Under the pieces are notes generated by a model. It was not told the origin of the DNA. It saw nothing but the letters and a program-made list of their open reading frames with translations, and searched no databases. This document shows, in pieces, positions 19,856-28,119 of a DNA stretch of 64,000 nucleotides (within the stretch, counting starts at the first letter, position 1; every line of letters begins with the position of its first letter). The DNA comes from Flavobacteriaceae bacterium (GTDB taxonomy: Bacteria > Bacteroidota > Bacteroidia > Flavobacteriales > Flavobacteriaceae): contig JANSXF010000004.1 in NCBI GenBank assembly GCA_024743095.1, positions 1-64,000 on the forward strand, in the 5' to 3' direction. The translations under genes and the position numbers were made by a program.

Positions 19856-20524
19856 ATGGGGATAGATTATTACAACGAGTTATTGACAGAGACCGAAAAA
19901 AAAAATTCTCCCAAACAATTGTTTTTCGCAGGGAATGAAGATTTGTTATACCACAAACGGCGAGTTTCCGTGGTTGGCTCTAGAAATGCTTCCAAAGAAG
20001 GGTTGTTAAGGGCAAAAATGGTATCCAAGGCTCTGATAGAGCATGATATAATTGTTGTTAGTGGCCTTGCTGCTGGAATTGATACCATGGCGCATACCAC
20101 GGCCATAAAAAACAACGGCCAAACCATTGCTGTATTAGGTACTCCTCTAACTATAGCTTATCCAAAAGAGAATGCTGGACTTTTGGAAACCATAAAAAAA
20201 GAGCACTTGGCAATTTCCCAATTCCCTGAAGGCTACCCATCATTGCCCAAAAATTTTCCAATCCGGAACAGGACAATGGCCCTAATATCAGATGCAACAA
20301 TCATTATAGAGGCCAGTGAAAAAAGCGGAACCCGCCATCAAGGTTGGGAAGCACTACGATTGGGCAGGGAAGTTTATATATTAGAAAATGTTATTAAAGA
20401 CAAAAATATCACTTGGGCTAAAGAAATGATGAATTACGGAGCTGAAATCTTGACTCGAGAAAATATAGATCTGGTTTTAAGGAACATTCCCTACCTAACC
20501 TCAAAACTTGAGGATGCCTTTTGA
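19856..20524 (+). CDS. DprA/Smf-like SLOG-fold protein
   Basis: A 222-residue protein made only of the DprA Rossmann-like core: VSVVGSRNAS, VSGLAAGIDTMAHTTA, TIAVLGTPL, FPIRNRTMALISDATIIIEA and KSGTRHQGWEALRLGREVY. It lacks the N-terminal SAM and C-terminal winged-helix domains of housekeeping DprA (usually 350 residues or more). DprA binds single-stranded DNA and loads RecA; short SLOG proteins in defence contexts may instead bind or process nucleotides. The downstream phosphoribosyltransferase gene overlaps it, so the two form a coupled pair. The family call is firm; the role is open. Confidence 0.85.
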   Translation: MGIDYYNELLTETEKKNSPKQLFFAGNEDLLYHKRRVSVVGSRNASKEGLLRAKMVSKALIEHDIIVVSGLAAGIDTMAHTTAIKNNGQTIAVLGTPLTIAYPKENAGLLETIKKEHLAISQFPEGYPSLPKNFPIRNRTMALISDATIIIEASEKSGTRHQGWEALRLGREVYILENVIKDKNITWAKEMMNYGAEILTRENIDLVLRNIPYLTSKLEDAF

Positions 20525-21146
20525 CATAAATTTTGCCACCATGTTAGAGTTTGCTACAAAAGGCAAAAATGATATGGCTTTAAAATCCCGACAAATTGCT
20601 GGTAACATAAAATCCGGAAATGTCAAGGTCATTGAACGCCTTATACATCATATCAAAAACCTTCCTGGAGAACACCCGATAAAGAAAATGTTCGATCAAG
20701 CAGTTTTGGTACCAGCTCCAAGAAGTGCTCCCATTGTGGAAAATGGCCTATGGCCCACCAAAATTTTATGTGAACATTTCGTTGAATCCGGACTTGGGAA
20801 AAGTGTACAAGAATTCATTGTCAGGGAAACCAAAGTTCCCAAATCGAGTAATTTTAGCAGTGCAGATTTACGGCCTAGCTGTAATACTCATTTCAACAGT
20901 CTTACTGTAATCCCCCCTGAGGCCTTTATTGAGAAAATTGTTGTGGTCGATGATGTTTTCACACTAGGAAGAACTTCATGTGCGTGCGTTAGAAAACTAA
21001 AAGAATCTTTTCCCGATGCCGACATCTCAGTATTTGCTGTGATGCGCACAAGGGGCTTTGTTGAAACATTGGATGCCATTGTAAAGCCCTCTTTCAATTC
21101 AATGACCTATCACTCAGAAAGTGATACCATCATTTTACCCGATTGA
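20514..21146 (+). CDS. ComF-like phosphoribosyltransferase paired with DprA-like protein
   Basis: About 210 residues from the ATG at 20514, overlapping the upstream stop by 11 bp (a TTG at 20508 is an alternative). The PRTase signature is KIVVVDDVFTLGRTS near residue 142-156, preceded by AVLVPAPRSAP as in ComF-type proteins. Catalysis would use PRPP and a base or nucleotide; the substrate is unknown. Tight coupling to a SLOG-fold DprA-like gene suggests a joint nucleotide- or DNA-sensing unit, which I recall as a recurring pair in defence islands. Confidence 0.78.
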   Translation: MPFDINFATMLEFATKGKNDMALKSRQIAGNIKSGNVKVIERLIHHIKNLPGEHPIKKMFDQAVLVPAPRSAPIVENGLWPTKILCEHFVESGLGKSVQEFIVRETKVPKSSNFSSADLRPSCNTHFNSLTVIPPEAFIEKIVVVDDVFTLGRTSCACVRKLKESFPDADISVFAVMRTRGFVETLDAIVKPSFNSMTYHSESDTIILPD

Positions 21147-21178: not shown

Positions 21179-23362
21179 TCAATCAAGAGCGCACAAAAAG
21201 GTTCCAATTATCTTAAAAGAGCATGGTTCAACTTCCTCCTCAACAACATTTGAATATTCAGGGGCTGTTGAAAGTGATTTCAGCACAATAGTTTGATATC
21301 CATTGTTTTGGTCTTCCCCATAACCCTTACCTTCGTATTCTTTGATACTATATATGGGACTTTTATCTCCAGTATTAGTTTTCTTAATCAATACTATTTG
21401 TCCGTTAATGGAACCACCGACATATTTTTTAAAAAGACAATAGGTACCGTTGCTAAGAACTTTGTTCATAGATTCCCCAATTACTCGAGTGGCAAATACA
21501 TCATTGTGTGGTTCCAAATCCCTTGGCATCTCAATCCATTTCTCGTCACTTTTATTATGGATTTCCTCGAATTCCGCTTCAATTGTGTTCAAATCAATAA
21601 AAGGAATGGCATTAACAAATGGCACAATATTATCAGTCTTGAATGATACATTGGTTTTGTTTTGTTCAGCTTTATATTTAGGGATAAACGAATCAAGGTG
21701 ATTCCTAAGAATAGGATCGCACACATAGACATATGTTCCCTTTATTCCCCTAAGCATTAATGTTTTATATATATTAATGATATAGCCCTTTAAAACTTCC
21801 TCATCTGTTATAGTGTTTTTTCCATTCTTATCATGATAATTTTCTGGCTTGATAATTATTTTTTGTTCCTGTGGATCATAGGATATTTCATTTCCAAAGA
21901 TGATTCCTGAATAATTGAGATCATAGCCTTGGGTTGTGTGGATACAACCTACCTCATTGATTGAGTTCTCTGAATTGATCCAATCATCAGGAGTTCCATT
22001 CCACATCAACTCACGTTCACCGATCTTTATGTCCTTTAAGCTTTTGTCATTCTTTGAAATCCATTTCCATGAAAAACCCGAAATCAGTCTTGCGAGTCCA
22101 CTTTCGTTATCCCTTTTTCTTATTTGGTCAATCATGTCATCGATGTCATCGAACAAAAGAAACTCATAGCTTTTGGAATTGAATTTTGGTGTTTCTATAT
22201 TAGCTTTTTCCTGCAGTATGGATTCGATATAATCCACATATGCATTCCCACCTTTGACCCTGAATTGAGATTTCAGTGGTATTAGATTTGACTCCTTGTT
22301 TTGTTTTAGCCTTTCAAACTCTGTTGTTGGTGTATCCGTTGGTTTAATGGATTGACCTTCATCATAGAAAAGCACTACGTTATCTGATTGCATAAGCACC
22401 CAATCCAGTTCGGAGCAGCTATGTTTGTCCAAACCCAATCTTTTACATCCATCATCAAATGATTTGTAGTTAGTTAAATTCACCCTTCTTCTAAGTCTAT
22501 GGGATTCATCCACTACCAATAGATCAAACTTTTCTTTACTTACTTCAGTAGGCCCAATGACCATTTTTGGATTGAGTCCTTTTATATTTTTAAACACTTT
22601 TTTCAAAGTAGCCCTAAAGGAGGACATTGGCACAACCAGAGCCATTTTCGGTTCAGGAAGCTTACATCTAAGCTCTTTAACAAGACGTATGAACTCTTTT
22701 TCATCATCACCAAACTCCTTGAAGCTAAAATCATCCAATTGACTGGAAAGTATCTTGAAAAGGAAAATAGCCAGAATGGTTTTACCCGTACCAGCTCCTC
22801 CCTCTACTATTGTATTTTTATAATTACCCGTGGCAAGACTTTTCAATATTTGAAAGAGACCCTGACTTTGCTCTTGTGTTAAGCTTTTATATGGTGAATA
22901 CTTGAATAAGTCTGAATTGTCGATGTGTTGAATGGAATGCTTTGTAATTCCTGCTGCCCGGAGTTGGTTCCATATTGATTTGAATATGTCCCAATAAACT
23001 TCTTTTTTTTGGTAATAATTGTGATTAGCAAGCCCTAAGTTTCCATTCAACAAACCATAAACATCATCCCCTGACAAATATTTGATCAAATTGGATTCAA
23101 TATCAAGGGTTGCTGACTTATTGAATTTCTCACTGGTTATCAAGTGTACCGATTTGAGTTTCCCCTTTGATTCATGTTTCAAGTGAGCATCCATTCTTGA
23201 ATAAACATCCGTGGTCTCTCCTACATACGCAGTTTTGGTTTCTACATCACTTAATATGTAAACAATAGGCCATAGATCCTTTGCGAAATGGTTGGTATTT
23301 AATCTATCAAAAAGGCTTTTCTCGAAATCGTAATGATTTATTTTCATTTGTGTTGAAATCAT
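21179..23362 (-). CDS. GIY-YIG nuclease / DUF2075 helicase / S24-peptidase fusion
   Basis: A 727-residue fusion. A GIY-YIG-like domain lies at about 32-61 (PIVYILSD...YVGET). An SF1-type DUF2075 helicase follows with Walker A VEGGAGTGKTIL (about 187-198), Walker B LLVVDESHRLRRR (281-293), SQFR, and HTTQGYDLNYSG. The C-terminus resembles LexA/S24 peptidases: TRVIGESMNKVL with the candidate nucleophile Ser at about 631, and a Lys-containing strand after GQIVLIKK. Start and stop of the upstream MazG-like gene overlap (TAATG), so translation is coupled. The three domains suggest cleavage or unwinding of nucleic acid controlled by a LexA-like module; this is inferred. Confidence 0.82.
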   Translation of the reverse strand: MISTQMKINHYDFEKSLFDRLNTNHFAKDLWPIVYILSDVETKTAYVGETTDVYSRMDAHLKHESKGKLKSVHLITSEKFNKSATLDIESNLIKYLSGDDVYGLLNGNLGLANHNYYQKKEVYWDIFKSIWNQLRAAGITKHSIQHIDNSDLFKYSPYKSLTQEQSQGLFQILKSLATGNYKNTIVEGGAGTGKTILAIFLFKILSSQLDDFSFKEFGDDEKEFIRLVKELRCKLPEPKMALVVPMSSFRATLKKVFKNIKGLNPKMVIGPTEVSKEKFDLLVVDESHRLRRRVNLTNYKSFDDGCKRLGLDKHSCSELDWVLMQSDNVVLFYDEGQSIKPTDTPTTEFERLKQNKESNLIPLKSQFRVKGGNAYVDYIESILQEKANIETPKFNSKSYEFLLFDDIDDMIDQIRKRDNESGLARLISGFSWKWISKNDKSLKDIKIGERELMWNGTPDDWINSENSINEVGCIHTTQGYDLNYSGIIFGNEISYDPQEQKIIIKPENYHDKNGKNTITDEEVLKGYIINIYKTLMLRGIKGTYVYVCDPILRNHLDSFIPKYKAEQNKTNVSFKTDNIVPFVNAIPFIDLNTIEAEFEEIHNKSDEKWIEMPRDLEPHNDVFATRVIGESMNKVLSNGTYCLFKKYVGGSINGQIVLIKKTNTGDKSPIYSIKEYEGKGYGEDQNNGYQTIVLKSLSTAPEYSNVVEEEVEPCSFKIIGTFLCALD

Positions 23363-23691
23363 TACAGCTCATTATATTTTTTAGCAGTCCCCTTTGATTT
23401 CTCCACAGGATACTTTTTATCGTTTTTCTGTATTTTTTCCAAAACAATCTGTTTGACATCAAAACCATATTTTTCAGCCAAAAGGAACGAGTAGGCAAAC
23501 ACATCCGCCAATTCCTCTTTTACCTTTTCCCTATCGGCATCATTGTGTGATTTCCAAAGAAAGTTTTCAAGCAATTCACCAGCTTCAATATTCAGGGCAA
23601 CCGACAAATCTTTTGGATTATGAAACTGCTCCCAATCTCTTTCATTTCTGAATTTAATTAATGCATTTGTAATTTCTTCGATGTCGTTCAT
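23362..23691 (-). CDS. MazG-like nucleotide pyrophosphohydrolase
   Basis: A 109-residue all-alpha NTP pyrophosphatase. The metal-binding pattern is EAGELLENF, followed by KEELADVFAYSFLLAEK (ExxE...ExxD). Length and motifs match the short MazG/RS21-C6 group, which hydrolyses (d)NTPs to monophosphates. Its stop overlaps the start of the helicase fusion gene, so the two proteins are made together. Depleting or sanitising nucleotides next to a helicase/nuclease is consistent with a defence pair. Confidence 0.88.
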   Translation of the reverse strand: MNDIEEITNALIKFRNERDWEQFHNPKDLSVALNIEAGELLENFLWKSHNDADREKVKEELADVFAYSFLLAEKYGFDVKQIVLEKIQKNDKKYPVEKSKGTAKKYNEL

Positions 23692-24139: not shown

Positions 24140-24262
24140 ATGACTAAAATTGGGAGAAACAATCCTTGTCCATGTGGAAGCGGAAAGAAGTACAAAAAGT
24201 GTTGTTTAAGGAAAATTGAAGAAAAAAATTTGTTGAAAATTATTCGTTGGTGGATTATATAA
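24140..24262 (+). CDS. SEC-C zinc-binding mini-protein
   Basis: A 40-residue frame with [18 protein letters not shown], the complete SEC-C zinc-binding motif (CPC and CC) found at the C-terminus of SecA and in many small proteins. A C-terminal RWWII tail follows. It may be a stand-alone motif protein or the leftover of a longer gene. A terminator-like hairpin follows 6 bp after the stop codon, which supports a real transcript. Confidence 0.5.
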
Positions 24263-24420: not shown

Positions 24421-24684
24421 CTATTTTAATTCGGCATATATGACCTTGGTGATCATATCAGGCTCTATGTCAAGTAAATTAGCAAGCCTAACTATTTCGC
24501 CCATTGTAAACTTATCAGGATGGTTCAGTTTGACCATATACCTACCATAATTTATACCAAGTGATTTTGCTATTCGGGTCGGATATAATTCGGCAAGAGT
24601 GTACATCTTTCGAATTTTTCCAGTCTCGAACATTGAACCTATGGAAACCAGGGCAGGGTCTTTATGATCATCTTTTTTTGTCAT
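24421..24684 (-). CDS. small HTH-like hypothetical protein
   Basis: An 87-residue protein. The middle (TRIAKSLGINYGRYMVKL, then FTMGEIVRLANLLDIEPD) reads like a Cro/C1-type helix-turn-helix with the usual LANLLDIEPD end. It is divergent from the sigma factor gene at 24818 with an AT-rich shared promoter region, so it may control the sigma/dCas12f operon. DNA binding is inferred from pattern only. Confidence 0.55.
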   Translation of the reverse strand: MTKKDDHKDPALVSIGSMFETGKIRKMYTLAELYPTRIAKSLGINYGRYMVKLNHPDKFTMGEIVRLANLLDIEPDMITKVIYAELK

Positions 24685-24817
24685 GGGCGTATTTGTTAAC
24701 CCTAAAATGACAAGTAATTCATTTATAGTACTGTAAAATATACTTATAATAAGTTAATAATTACTATTAATAAATAAATGATTACATTTGGTAAGTAGTT
24801 ATTATAATTCTATCCTC

Positions 24818-25609
24818 ATGATTTCAAATATCGACAACAAACATCTTGAATTGTTGAAGAAAGGTTGCTCTTCAACTTTTGCGGAAATCTATACCAAATA
24901 TCACAAACAAATTTTTTGGTTGGGAAAGAGCCTGCTCAATAATCGGTTTGTTGTGGAAACATTGGTCCAGGATGTATTCTTGAAGTTGTGGGTACATAGG
25001 GACACTTTGGAATCACCCAAGCACATTTATTTTTTCTTGCGGTTTGTGATGAAAAGGGAGTGCATTTCATACTATACACGCCCCAAGAACAAGTTTTTCA
25101 GGAAAGTCCACTCGTTGGAGAGTTTTGGGAATTACCAAGACTATATGGTCGGGTATGACCCTGCTGAAGATAATAAGAATTTTAAACTACAAGAAGGAGA
25201 ACAAGAGAAGTTCGAAAGTATCAAAGGTATCCTGCCATTATTGGATGACAGCAAAAGACATGTAATCAATCTGTGTCTGAAATACGGCTTTCAGTATAAA
25301 GCTATTTCCAAAGCAATGGGAAAAAGTATCAATGAAACCTGTAGAGAGATCAAGGAAGCCATTGAGGATATTAAAACCATTCTTCATCGAGGAAATAAGC
25401 TCGATTCCAGTAATAACAATATGGATGAGATAAAGTTTACTGGCGAGATGACAGAAGAACAGACAAAGGTGCTTAAAATGCGTTGTGAATTGAAGTATTC
25501 CTTTTCCGAAATAGCCAATGAGCTTAACCTCTCCCAAAAGGAGGTGCATCAGGAATTTATGATAGCCTATAGGCTAATGGAAGCAAAAGATCAATTGCAA
25601 TCAGCTTAA
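24818..25609 (+). CDS. ECF-like sigma factor with duplicated C-terminal HTH
   Basis: 263 residues from the ATG at 24818 (a TTG 30 bases earlier is in frame). Sigma region 2 covers about 20-90 ([20 protein letters not shown], then [10 protein letters not shown], the ECF-type core-binding helix). Region 4 lies at about 140-190 ([14 protein letters not shown]...AISKAMGKS). A second sigma-4-like HTH follows at 210-258 ([31 protein letters not shown]), which ordinary ECF factors lack. The stop is 1 bp before the Cas12f-like gene. It likely guides RNA polymerase together with that protein rather than by a normal promoter alone (inference). Confidence 0.82.
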
Positions 25610-25610
25610 C

Positions 25611-26708
25611 ATGGAAAAGTCAACGCTAAAACTTACTCGAAAGATCCAACTACTGATCGACCTTCCTACCAAAGAAGATAAAAAAGAGGCCTTGGATAAA
25701 CTGTACCAATGGCAGAACCGATGCTTTAGGGCAGCTAACCTAATAGTGACCCACCTTTATGTACAGGAAATGATAAGGGAATTCTTTTATCTATCAGAGG
25801 GGATAAAATATAAATTGGCTGATGAAAAGAAGGATGAACAAGGAATCCTAAACCGTTCTAGGATCAACACCACCTATCGAGTGGTATCAGATCGTTTTAA
25901 AGGAGAAATCCCCACAAACATATTGTCCAATTTGAACCAGGCCTTGATTTCATCTTTCAAAAAGAACAGACCGGAGTATTGGAATGGTGAACGATCTTTG
26001 AAAAACTTCAGAAGGGATATGGCCTTCCCTTTTGACTTGGAGGGTATGAGCGGATTACACTTTAACGAAGAGAAAAAAGCTTTCAGCTTTCGTTTATTTC
26101 AGATTCCATTTAAAACGTACTTGGGCAAGGATTTTACTGATAAACGAAAATTGTTGGAGCGGGTATTGGAGGGCAAGACTAAGCTGTGCACATCACACAT
26201 CAAGCTAAAAGATGGTAAGATTTTCTTATTAGCGGTATTCGAAATTGAAAAAGAAAGCCATGAACTAAGACCAGAGATTATTGCAGAAGCTTCTCTTTCG
26301 CTTGAATATCCAATTGTAGTAAAGGTCGGTAAGGCAAGGCTTACCATTGGCACAAAGGAAGAATTTTTATACAGAAGATTGGCGATACAATCGGCACACA
26401 GACGGGCAAAGATTGGGGCAACCTATTCCAAATCGGGTAAAGGCATAAAACGAAAACTGAAGGCAGTTGACAGACTTGGTCAAACGGAACGTAAATATGT
26501 CCATAACCGTTTGCATGTCTATAGCCGGAGGTTGATTGATTTTTGTGTTAAACATAGCGCAGGAACCCTCATACTTTTAAATCAGGAGGAAAAAACAGAG
26601 ATTGCTAAAGAAGAGGGATTTGTATTAAGAAATTGGAGCTACAATGATTTGATGACCAAAATAAAATATAAGGCCAAGAAAGCGGGTCTCGAAGTTATAA
26701 TTGATTAA
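25611..26708 (+). CDS. nuclease-dead Cas12f/TnpB-like RNA-guided protein
   Basis: A 365-residue protein. The N-terminal helical/WED-like part (RKIQLLIDLPTKEDKKEALD, WQNRCFRAANLIVTHLY) and the RuvC-like half match Cas12f/TnpB. RuvC-I, normally GIDLG, reads SLSLEYPIVV, so the catalytic Asp is replaced (Ser230). RuvC-II, normally with a Glu, reads LILLNQEEKT. The conserved LRNWSYNDLMTKIKYKAKKA is followed by GLEVIID and a stop, so the TSxxCxxCG zinc finger and the third catalytic Asp are absent. It should bind a guide RNA and DNA but not cut. Coupling to a sigma factor and the guide-like RNA at 26712-26810 suggests RNA-guided transcription. Confidence 0.82.
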   Translation: MEKSTLKLTRKIQLLIDLPTKEDKKEALDKLYQWQNRCFRAANLIVTHLYVQEMIREFFYLSEGIKYKLADEKKDEQGILNRSRINTTYRVVSDRFKGEIPTNILSNLNQALISSFKKNRPEYWNGERSLKNFRRDMAFPFDLEGMSGLHFNEEKKAFSFRLFQIPFKTYLGKDFTDKRKLLERVLEGKTKLCTSHIKLKDGKIFLLAVFEIEKESHELRPEIIAEASLSLEYPIVVKVGKARLTIGTKEEFLYRRLAIQSAHRRAKIGATYSKSGKGIKRKLKAVDRLGQTERKYVHNRLHVYSRRLIDFCVKHSAGTLILLNQEEKTEIAKEEGFVLRNWSYNDLMTKIKYKAKKAGLEVIID

Positions 26709-26711
26709 CAA

Positions 26712-26810
26712 AACTGATGGAGGGTGCTTGTACACCCGTAAGGTGAGGTCATGGGCACTCACTAAATGCTAAAAGCATATACAACGCGTGGGCTCTCTTA
26801 TTTATTAGTG
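26712..26810 (+). ncRNA. candidate natural single guide RNA for the dCas12f-like protein
   Basis: The sequence starts 3 bp after the dCas12f stop. Three hairpins follow each other: GGGTG/CACCC (26722-26737), GTGAG/CTCAC (26743-26762) and ATGCT-AAA-AGCAT (26766-26778). The last resembles a fused repeat/anti-repeat. It is followed by ATACAAC (26779-26785), similar to the ATGCAAC end of Cas12f repeats, and then a guide-like stretch starting GCGTGGGCTCTC at 26786. The 3' end is not defined. The structure is read by eye; a matching target was not found in the window. Confidence 0.6.
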
Positions 26811-26849
26811 CTGAGTCTTTTAATTAAATTATGCCGTAATTCTGCACAC

Positions 26850-26864
26850 TGCACAGGTTGTGCA
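26850..26864. promoter_or_regulatory. palindromic operator candidate before the WYL remnant
   Basis: TGCACA-GGT-TGTGCA is a perfect 15-bp palindrome ending 10 bp before the start codon of the truncated WYL gene. A third TGCACA half site lies at 26843-26848. It is likely the autoregulatory site of the former intact regulator. A TGCACAAC stretch also follows the intact WYL gene (about 11770). Confidence 0.45.
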
Positions 26865-26874
26865 TTTTTATGAA

Positions 26875-27039
26875 ATGCCTACCAATAAGAATGTACTTAT
26901 TCGATATCAAGTTCTAGATAGATGTTTTTCAAATCCTGGTCGTAAGTATGATATACAGGCCTTGTTGAATTCAGTGAATGATGCTCTTTTTGAATACAAT
27001 CCAAAAACTGATTTAATTAAAAAAAGGCTACTATATTGA
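26875..27039 (+). pseudogene. truncated WYL regulator, paralogue of the gene at 10757
   Basis: The 54-codon frame MPTNKNVLIRYQVLDRCFSN and onward aligns without gaps to the N-terminus of the intact WYL regulator (MPINKNALIRYHALDKCFSN and onward). It stops right after KKRLLY, where the intact protein continues DDIRFM. The HTH is incomplete and the WYL domain is missing. The break coincides with the transition to core genes, so it probably marks a deletion or recombination end of the island. Confidence 0.8.
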
Positions 27040-27040
27040 A

Positions 27041-27057
27041 TCGCCACTTTCTGGCGA
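27041..27057. repeat. short inverted repeat at the island edge
   Basis: TCGCCA and TGGCGA with a 5-base spacer lie directly behind the truncated WYL frame and 25 bp before the AraC gene stop. It may help end transcription of the araC-type gene, although no T-tract follows on that strand. Confidence 0.3.
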
Positions 27058-27081
27058 ACCCGAAAGGCAACAAGAAAACGG

Positions 27082-28119
27082 TCAGCCCCCCACCTGGGCG
27101 CTTTTTTTACTGTTCTTGAATTCACTGGGGCTCAACCCGAATTTCTCCTTAAAGATCTTGGAAAAATAACTCCTGCTGGTAAACCCGATGGAGTAGACGA
27201 CTTCGGAAATGTTCATTTCGGTAGTGGCAATGTGATTTCTGGCCAGTTCCAAACGGGCATGCCTAATGTACTCGGTCACCGTTTTGTTATAGAGCAGTTT
27301 AAAGCCTTCCTGTAGTTTGGCCTGGGTGAGCCCGGTCTCGGCCGAAATGTCCTCCAACGAAAAATCCTTGGCAATGTTCTTTTCTATCTTTTTGGCATAG
27401 TTGCGAACCACCTTTAACTCCCTTTTCAGCAAACTGGTCTGAGGTCTTTTGTCCAAGACCTCTTTGTTGTGTTGTACCATGTGCATGGAAAGAATCTGGT
27501 ACACCAGCCCCTCAATCATCATAATCCGGATCATTCCTTTGGTCTTCACCTTTTTTATGGCGGTTACTACCTCGGTCATTTTTAGGTTGTACGATCCGTA
27601 GTAGGCAAAAACCTTTTCGTGGTCGGTATCCAAAAATACTTGGTACAGCTTTTTATTGAGTTCTTCGCCTTGATTCAATCTTTTGCGCAAAAATGGTTTT
27701 CTGCGCACCTGTATCACAGTTTGGGAAATTTTTACATCCTTGGGAAAATACCTGTCCGTGATCCCACCATCGCGATTGGTAAGGATAACGGACTGGAACT
27801 GCTCCATAATCTTGATCTTATCTTCTGGTTGGTACCCGAACTTATGGCCACAATAGCCCTCCAAACAATAGTAAAAACCGATCGGGTTATAGTCAGATGT
27901 ATCCACCTCTATCAAAACCTCATCAAAAAAGGTAATGTCCAACTCCAACAAGCTTACGCCCCAGTCAAAGGTTATAAAACGTATAGTGCCTTTTGCCATG
28001 TCGTTGGAAACTTTCAACTGGTGCTGCCCCCACTGCTCTTCAATAGCTCCTCCTAAAACGTTTTTGATCTGCTCAACAGATTCCGCAGTATCCTGGGCCT
28101 TTACTTTAATTTTGATCAT
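27082..28119 (-). CDS. AraC-family transcriptional regulator
   Basis: A 345-residue protein. The C-terminal two-HTH AraC domain (about 250-340) contains FSLEDISAETGLTQAKLQEG, VTEYIRHARLELARNHI and the signature ISEVVYSIGFTSRSYFSKIF, then GLSPSEFK. The N-terminal 240 residues are a sensor region with no recognised ligand domain; it includes a cysteine-containing YYCLEGYCGHKFGYQ. It is the first gene of the core region right of the island. The target genes are unknown; the divergent SRAP-like gene at 28300 is a candidate. Confidence 0.88.
   Translation of the reverse strand: MIKIKVKAQDTAESVEQIKNVLGGAIEEQWGQHQLKVSNDMAKGTIRFITFDWGVSLLELDITFFDEVLIEVDTSDYNPIGFYYCLEGYCGHKFGYQPEDKIKIMEQFQSVILTNRDGGITDRYFPKDVKISQTVIQVRRKPFLRKRLNQGEELNKKLYQVFLDTDHEKVFAYYGSYNLKMTEVVTAIKKVKTKGMIRIMMIEGLVYQILSMHMVQHNKEVLDKRPQTSLLKRELKVVRNYAKKIEKNIAKDFSLEDISAETGLTQAKLQEGFKLLYNKTVTEYIRHARLELARNHIATTEMNISEVVYSIGFTSRSYFSKIFKEKFGLSPSEFKNSKKSAQVGG

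Follow-up and report, generated by a model that had tools for sequence, protein, structure and literature searches.

The closest described systems are the dCas12f-sigmaE modules, for which structures are deposited as 9n9c, 9n9m, 9n9o and 9n9q. The 2025 reports on these modules from the Sternberg laboratory reportedly describe target sites with a 5'-G and a transcription start at a set distance, about 46 bp downstream. The PDB chains 9nzo ('Cas12f Effector') and 9nzr ('Cas12f Nuclease') are relatives over residues 85-362 of the protein described here; they comprise 506-508 residues and carry the RuvC-I aspartate, whereas the protein described here has 365 residues and lacks it. A further kind are the TldRs, TnpB-like nuclease-dead repressors that are phage-encoded (PMC13418256). 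They resemble the present locus in that a nuclease-dead TnpB/Cas12f-type protein and a guide RNA control host genes; in the part of the source available no sigma partner is named for them (PMC13418256), in contrast to the present family, in which 79 of the best 80 loci (from 277) have a linked sigma homologue.

The locus is encoded in a stretch of 64,000 nucleotides from a Flavobacteriaceae bacterium (contig JANSXF010000004.1 of assembly GCA_024743095.1; hereafter the window) and shows the same gene order as the dCas12f-sigmaE modules. With a probability of roughly 0.87 it represents a dCas12f-sigmaE module for RNA-guided transcription, with three copies of a leader element in the same genome as its predicted targets. 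The first-pass annotation had named it the strongest candidate for a novel system in the window; novelty of the kind is not supported, as the dCas12f-sigma kind is already found in the PDB. The module kind itself being known, the part that appears new is the predicted susCD regulon together with the switch-like leader. Whether RNA-guided sigma factors are an oddity or amount to a layer of regulation depends on their natural targets and purpose. In the present case tens of species allow the guide, its target and the target genes to be taken from genome sequence, with a predicted regulon of susCD nutrient transporters, a predicted feedback and a leader RNA for which two alternative folds are proposed. 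If true, this would open the physiological role of RNA-guided transcription to direct tests in cultured strains of a marine genus.

The sigma-dCas12f gene pair and its guide RNA

The first gene (24818-25609, + strand) encodes an ECF-type sigma factor of 263 amino acids from ATG, as judged from the ORF and from Pfam, NCBIfam/TIGR and PDB matches; a TTG at 24788 is a possible alternative start giving a longer ORF. The Pfam domains Sigma70_r2 (residues 24-88) and Sigma70_r4 (residues 210-245) are both above cut-off. The TIGR sigma models cover residues 20-188 and region 4 is located unusually far C-terminal, which suggests that an extra C-terminal HTH may exist. The second gene (25611-26708, + strand) encodes a nuclease-dead Cas12f homologue of 365 amino acids. 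Over its whole length (residues 1-364) it matches the 'Nuclease-deactivated Cas12f' of 9n9c, 9n9m, 9n9o and 9n9q (E 5.2e-187), and it matches Cas12f of PADLOC (E 1.8e-52); matches to the NCBIfam TnpB/Cas12f models are below their cut-offs and a Pfam search gave no match. The ECF-type sigma factor is the neighbour expected of a dCas12f-sigmaE module: it matches 9n9q_C ('RpoE'; E 1.7e-110) of that family, and 1 bp separates the two ORFs.

RuvC-III sits in the C-terminal part of Cas12f. When the homologue is aligned with 9nzo, a Cas12f chain, Ser228 stands opposite the RuvC-I aspartate (gvDlg), the glutamate taken as RuvC-II (mERl) falls opposite a gap, and the alignment stops at residue 414 of 506, leaving the C-terminal 92 residues of 9nzo without a counterpart. 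On this alignment the RuvC catalytic residues are absent from the homologue. The first-pass annotation had described a sigma gene ending 1 bp before a Cas12f-like gene, a loss of the nuclease residues and a fit to reported nuclease-dead Cas12f homologues of flavobacteria that recruit ECF sigma factors. The ORFs confirm the first point, the alignment restores none of the RuvC residues, and the third point is supported by the name of the closest solved protein, 'Nuclease-deactivated Cas12f', and by entry 9n9q, which contains 'RpoE' in addition.

Upstream of the sigma gene, the intergenic region 24685-24817 (+ strand) probably contains the promoter of the sigma-dCas12f operon, as suggested by comparison with close relatives. 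It is flanked by a small divergent ORF of 87 amino acids (24421-24684, - strand) that is HTH-like by eye only, with no Pfam match above cut-off. Five of ten aligned close relatives (L126, L127, L131, L133, L135) share this ORF and its promoter region, and the other five have a different sequence upstream of the operon. The 87-residue protein is possibly a local regulator of the operon promoter.

The pair had been expected to recur in related genomes, and it does. Relatives were collected by a scan of species genomes, of which the best 80 of 277 loci were kept; the following counts refer to these 80. A sigma homologue was found by tblastn upstream of dcas12f in 79 loci, the exception (L171) having its contig end only 30 bp before dcas12f, and in 68 loci the gap between an intact upstream ORF and dcas12f is 1-2 bp. 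The nearest relatives (92-95% identity) are named Flagellimonas, Muricauda or Allomuricauda, plus one Maribacter, which makes this group the most likely origin of the window. Within the family, 19 of 397 genomes, the own genome included, have a dCas12f match at 1e-30.

The guide RNA is encoded downstream of dcas12f on the + strand, and by sequence it carries the scaffold of the dCas12f-sigmaE family. The scaffold (26713-26785) is one of 23 rows in the scaffold alignment and is matched by the covariance model; 32 of 77 alignment columns are invariant over these 23 copies, the window copy included. Downstream of homologues the scaffold measures 73-77 nt and ends mostly in ATACAAC. It is followed by the guide GCGTGGGCTCTCTTATTT (26786-26803, + strand, with a provisional 3' end) and by a terminator-like hairpin with T-run (26850-26869, + strand), a possible end of the operon or of the guide RNA; such sites number 3 in the stretch vs 1.7 in shuffles, which is weak on its own. 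The first-pass annotation had placed a guide-RNA-like structure at 26712-26810. The location stands by comparison of the 23 copies and by the model, with a small correction of the coordinates to those given here, while the structure is not supported by a single-sequence fold, as 26706-26860 folded alone does not exceed shuffles in stability (z 0.16). The array and active nuclease of a type V-F CRISPR-Cas system are not seen here: no direct repeats were found at 26600-27100, and the nuclease residues are missing.

The covariance model matches 79 of the 80 loci with 111 matches (best 80 of 277 relatives), some of these loci coming from genomes that also gave rows to the model; one match (L188, 24 bits) was left out of the counts. 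The small RNA expected at this place is thereby supported at the level of conservation. The locus without a match is L193, whose contig stops 14 bp after dcas12f. Among the 397 family genomes, which were scanned for guide RNA and leader with Infernal's stricter filters, the guide-RNA model matches 22, i.e., all 19 with dCas12f plus G021, G364 and G376; G021 has the guide RNA and a dCas12f gene remnant. As 18 of the 19 dCas12f genomes gave rows to the model, the informative part is the silence of the remaining family genomes.

The own genome has a single guide-RNA copy, that of the window, and some relatives have 2-5 copies with differing guides. Of the 79 relatives' loci, 22 have the first 16 nt of the guide unchanged and 41 have them with no more than 2 mismatches (offset 0 or 1); a guide starting with (G)GCGTGRG is found in 58 of the 79 and absent in 21 (all among the best 80 of 277). 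Conservation thus runs past the scaffold into the guide, which suggests a conserved target.

The protein of Allomuricauda (Flagellimonas) taeanensis (L157) matches 9n9c with 813 bits. Its pair shares 278 of 365 residues of dCas12f and 171 of 263 residues of the sigma factor with the window, and the scaffold of the window is present (85.6 bits). However, the guides differ (GCGTGGGCTCTCTTATTT in the window, TTGTGGGATATACGCTAA in A. taeanensis), and A. taeanensis has a leader upstream of its own sigma gene, whereas the window has none.

Guide-matching sites and the leader element

In the own genome the 16-mer guide has 16 matches at up to 3 mismatches vs 13 for the reversed pattern, so that loose-match numbers alone are uninformative there. 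Apart from the guide itself, the matches with 1-2 mismatches in 16 are those on contigs C12, C17 and C37, and all three are located in the leader. Over 18 nt the sites on C17, C12 and C37 have 1, 3 and 4 mismatches, respectively, and each stands after a G; a perfect guide-site pair was not found in the own genome. In silico, the own sites thus show the 5'-G and the position upstream of a gene that are reported for dCas12f-sigmaE modules. This G also takes part in base pairing within the leader, and its constancy is therefore no independent sign of a targeting motif.

On C37, susC starts 564 bp after the site. The site on C12 is followed by a paralogue of this gene, the start of which, placed by the paralogous start, lies 542 bp downstream. 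The target on C17 runs off the contig end, at the point from which C25 takes up the match. On both C37 and C25 the gene encodes Plug and beta-barrel Pfam domains and has a SusD neighbour, and the C17 site probably continues into a third susC-susD pair on C25.

Over 13 dCas12f genomes the 19-mer of G and guide gave 37 matches at up to 3 mismatches vs 6 for the reversed pattern. Eleven are the guide-RNA genes, 21 lie in the leader and five elsewhere. Of the leader matches, 11 are located 0.94-1.07 kb upstream of dcas12f on the same strand, and the eight that were read lie 166-280 bp upstream of the sigma ORF. Among the remaining ten, five precede an ORF with the Plug domain of TonB receptors, one (C12) the susC paralogue, one a HEPN-domain ORF and one a sigma-like ORF; two are at a contig end or without ORF. 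In ten close relatives and A. taeanensis the leader is found in 10 of 11 genomes with 18 copies. Two copies have no readable site, and in the other 16, from nine related genomes, every site stands after a G. These 16 copies precede a Plug-domain ORF (ten), the sigma-dCas12f pair (two), no ORF (three) or something else (one). The guide of A. taeanensis has no second match at up to 3 mismatches in 19 within its own genome.

A self-target was looked for in the window and not found, and a scan of the window with the leader model was negative up to E 1; the operons of the close relatives of the window likewise have no leader copy upstream. Among the 80 relatives' loci (best 80 of 277), 37 have a strong leader match and 43 do not, a 38th match (L136) being weak; the leader begins 1.0-1.16 kb upstream of dcas12f in 33 loci and 1.4-2.8 kb upstream in four. 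It was also found in 15 of 22 dCas12f homologue loci, most of which gave rows to the leader model. Within leader-bearing loci, 25 of 52 guides fit their own upstream leader at up to 3 mismatches in 14, vs 8 of 260 shuffled guides; the 52 guides (one of 53, the distal guide of L183, was left out) are not independent, as many are alike. Own guide and own site differ by 60 mismatches vs 68.6 with other loci (p 0.017), a modest effect from 25 of the 37 loci, mostly with GCGTG-type guides, and from a statistic that ignores phylogeny.

That guide and common element are alike by chance appears extremely improbable. The near equality of 16-mer matches and reversed matches in the own genome would fit it; the confinement to the leader of all three own-genome sites that differ from the guide at no more than 2 of 16 positions, the 37 vs 6 matches over 13 genomes, and the 25 of 52 guides vs 8 of 260 shuffled ones that fit their own leader argue against it.

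Some genomes encode two or three dCas12f copies, i.e., G094 (L018, L036, L039), G309 (L025, L037), A. abyssi (L131, L154) and A. zhangzhouensis (L132, L135). In G094 and A. abyssi the copies carry differing guides, and a leader partly matched by the canonical guide precedes the copy whose own guide deviates. A cascade among the dCas12f copies of these two genomes is possible.

The leader, its alternative folds and the proposed mechanism

The leader consensus comprises about 250 nt, and the covariance model was built from 23 copies. The leader was found in 68 of the 397 family genomes, i.e., 18 of the 19 with dCas12f and 50 of the 378 others; 13 of the 18 gave rows to the model, and of the six dCas12f genomes that gave none, five have the leader. 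Among the 50 leader genomes without a dCas12f match, a search for dCas12f gave only one 52-residue remnant. As these genomes contain the leader with the target strand included, conservation of the target is not due to dCas12f alone. The genomes G019, G248 and G297 contain 6, 8 and 5 leader copies, respectively, and none has a dCas12f match, so that the leader probably has its own function and regulator.

Of 30 further leader loci 17 were read (13 were left out), and 15 of these have a readable site, one of them (L095) from a dCas12f genome. Thirteen of the 15 precede a SusC-like ORF, 12 of which are confirmed by the Plug domain; the leader of L104 precedes a HEPN-domain ORF, and that of L115 precedes neither kind. 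In each of the 15 a small divergent ORF lies about 0.2 kb upstream, and 8 of 10 such ORFs tested pass the HTH cut-off of Pfam. Upstream of the leader are a conserved promoter-like TATATTTG and a conserved TATATTTGCGA, both from a reading of every third of 68 copies and from the sigma-type leaders. By eye, many loci seem to have an own palindrome upstream of TATATTTG, beside an own divergent HTH-like gene; these palindromes look like locus-specific operators before a shared leader. Of the leaders tested, three precede genes other than susC, at L086 (1378-2403), L104 (3-1043, - strand) and L087 (2039-2728, - strand), with two HEPN-domain ORFs and one sigma-70-like ORF. A search of the window against Rfam at gathering scores was negative. 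In six loci, with the limit relaxed to E 5, Rfam gave three matches, all weak and below gathering scores and none on the leader. A literature search, which did not reach the 2025 dCas12f-sigmaE reports, gave nothing recognizable as this leader.

Covariation in the leader supports two folds. Fold 1 is a long hairpin, in which 94.6% of cells are paired over a selection of 69 copies; 21 of its 36 pairs are changed on both sides, with 336 such cells vs 95 in shuffles. Slid controls reach at most 39% paired, and an unfitted alignment of 24 agrees with the fold. In fold 2 the target strand is paired with the downstream TAAG.TGAG..CCACGCC; 99.2% are paired, and 19 cells are changed on both sides vs 3.4 in shuffles. 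For both folds the covariation was measured on related sequences, with shuffles that ignore the tree. Columns 79/144 of fold 2 are G-C in 56 copies, A-U in 7, G-U in 5 and another pair in 1. L019 and L026 show matched changes in both partners (GCTCACA / GTGTGGG / CCACACC); a change in L144 is matched in the first partner only and one in L140 in neither, both keeping G-U. On these alignments, folds 1 and 2 are mutually exclusive, and the target of the guide is the strand common to both.

In 47 of the 69 copies fold 2 is followed by a T-run (6 or more of 7), so that fold 2 resembles an intrinsic terminator in about two thirds. The consensus fold of 34 sigma-type leaders (three of 37 were left out) closes with GCTTTGA/TCAAAGC. 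Wobble cells are strand-specific, with 127 G-T vs 27 A-C, or 122 vs 1 without five weak edge pairs, in an alignment that was fitted to the model and may favor G-T. This excess suggests that the folded strand is the + strand, in susC sense, and hence RNA. The target palindrome was also considered as a DNA cruciform or recombination site, which is disfavored by the strand-specific wobble pairs.

The guide RNA could in principle act on the leader RNA, where it would mimic the shared switch strand, pair with one of the two partners of that strand and so shift the fold. In favor of this, guide and switch strand run in the same sense, and the guide is in part complementary to either partner. Such a role is very unlikely, since internal loops or bulges always interrupt the pairing of the partners with the switch strand, whereas at the three own sites the template DNA pairs with the guide at 1-4 mismatches in 18, and Cas12f/TnpB effectors bind double-stranded DNA.

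Binding to DNA could also serve repression, with dCas12f and guide RNA acting as a roadblock at the leader in the manner of TldR and the sigma factor serving other promoters. TldRs, likewise TnpB-like nuclease-dead proteins, are described to repress host genes (PMC13418256), and the guide would pair with the template strand within a leader that seems to be transcribed from an upstream promoter. We consider this unlikely in view of the sigma homologue upstream in 79 of the 80 loci, the gap of 1-2 bp in 68 of them (best 80 of 277) and the solved entry 9n9q that contains both proteins.

For the dCas12f-sigmaE module, the following course of events is proposed. The nuclease-dead Cas12f would bind the RNA encoded just 3' of its gene, and the guide would pair with the template strand at sites with a 5'-G in front. 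The linked sigma factor would bring RNA polymerase, which would begin transcription past the R-loop and in the direction of the gene. A start at this position would give an mRNA without the target strand that cannot form fold 2, and the susCD operons would be turned on by skipping the attenuating leader. Where the leader precedes the sigma-dCas12f operon, as in many relatives, the module would activate itself; the window copy has a different promoter region next to the HTH-like ORF. The wider reading, i.e., that an RNA-guided sigma factor is aimed at a riboswitch-like leader and bypasses its attenuation, with feedback where the module is self-led, and that dCas12f joined a more widespread leader as a second input, is offered tentatively and falls somewhat short of even odds.

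Other genes in the window

Upstream of the locus, two adjoining ORFs at 19856-21146 match ShosA (E 3e-70) and ShosT (E 8.5e-21) of PADLOC and are candidates for a defence toxin-antitoxin pair. They are followed by a gene on the - strand (21179-23691) for a protein of 727 amino acids with GIY-YIG and Schlafen group 3 helicase domains and a below-cut-off S24-like C-terminus, which is adjoined by a MazG-like gene. The 727-residue protein and the ShosA/ShosT pair possibly belong to one defence region. At 24140-24262 there is an ORF of 40 amino acids, translated by eye, with what we take to be a SEC-C-like motif.
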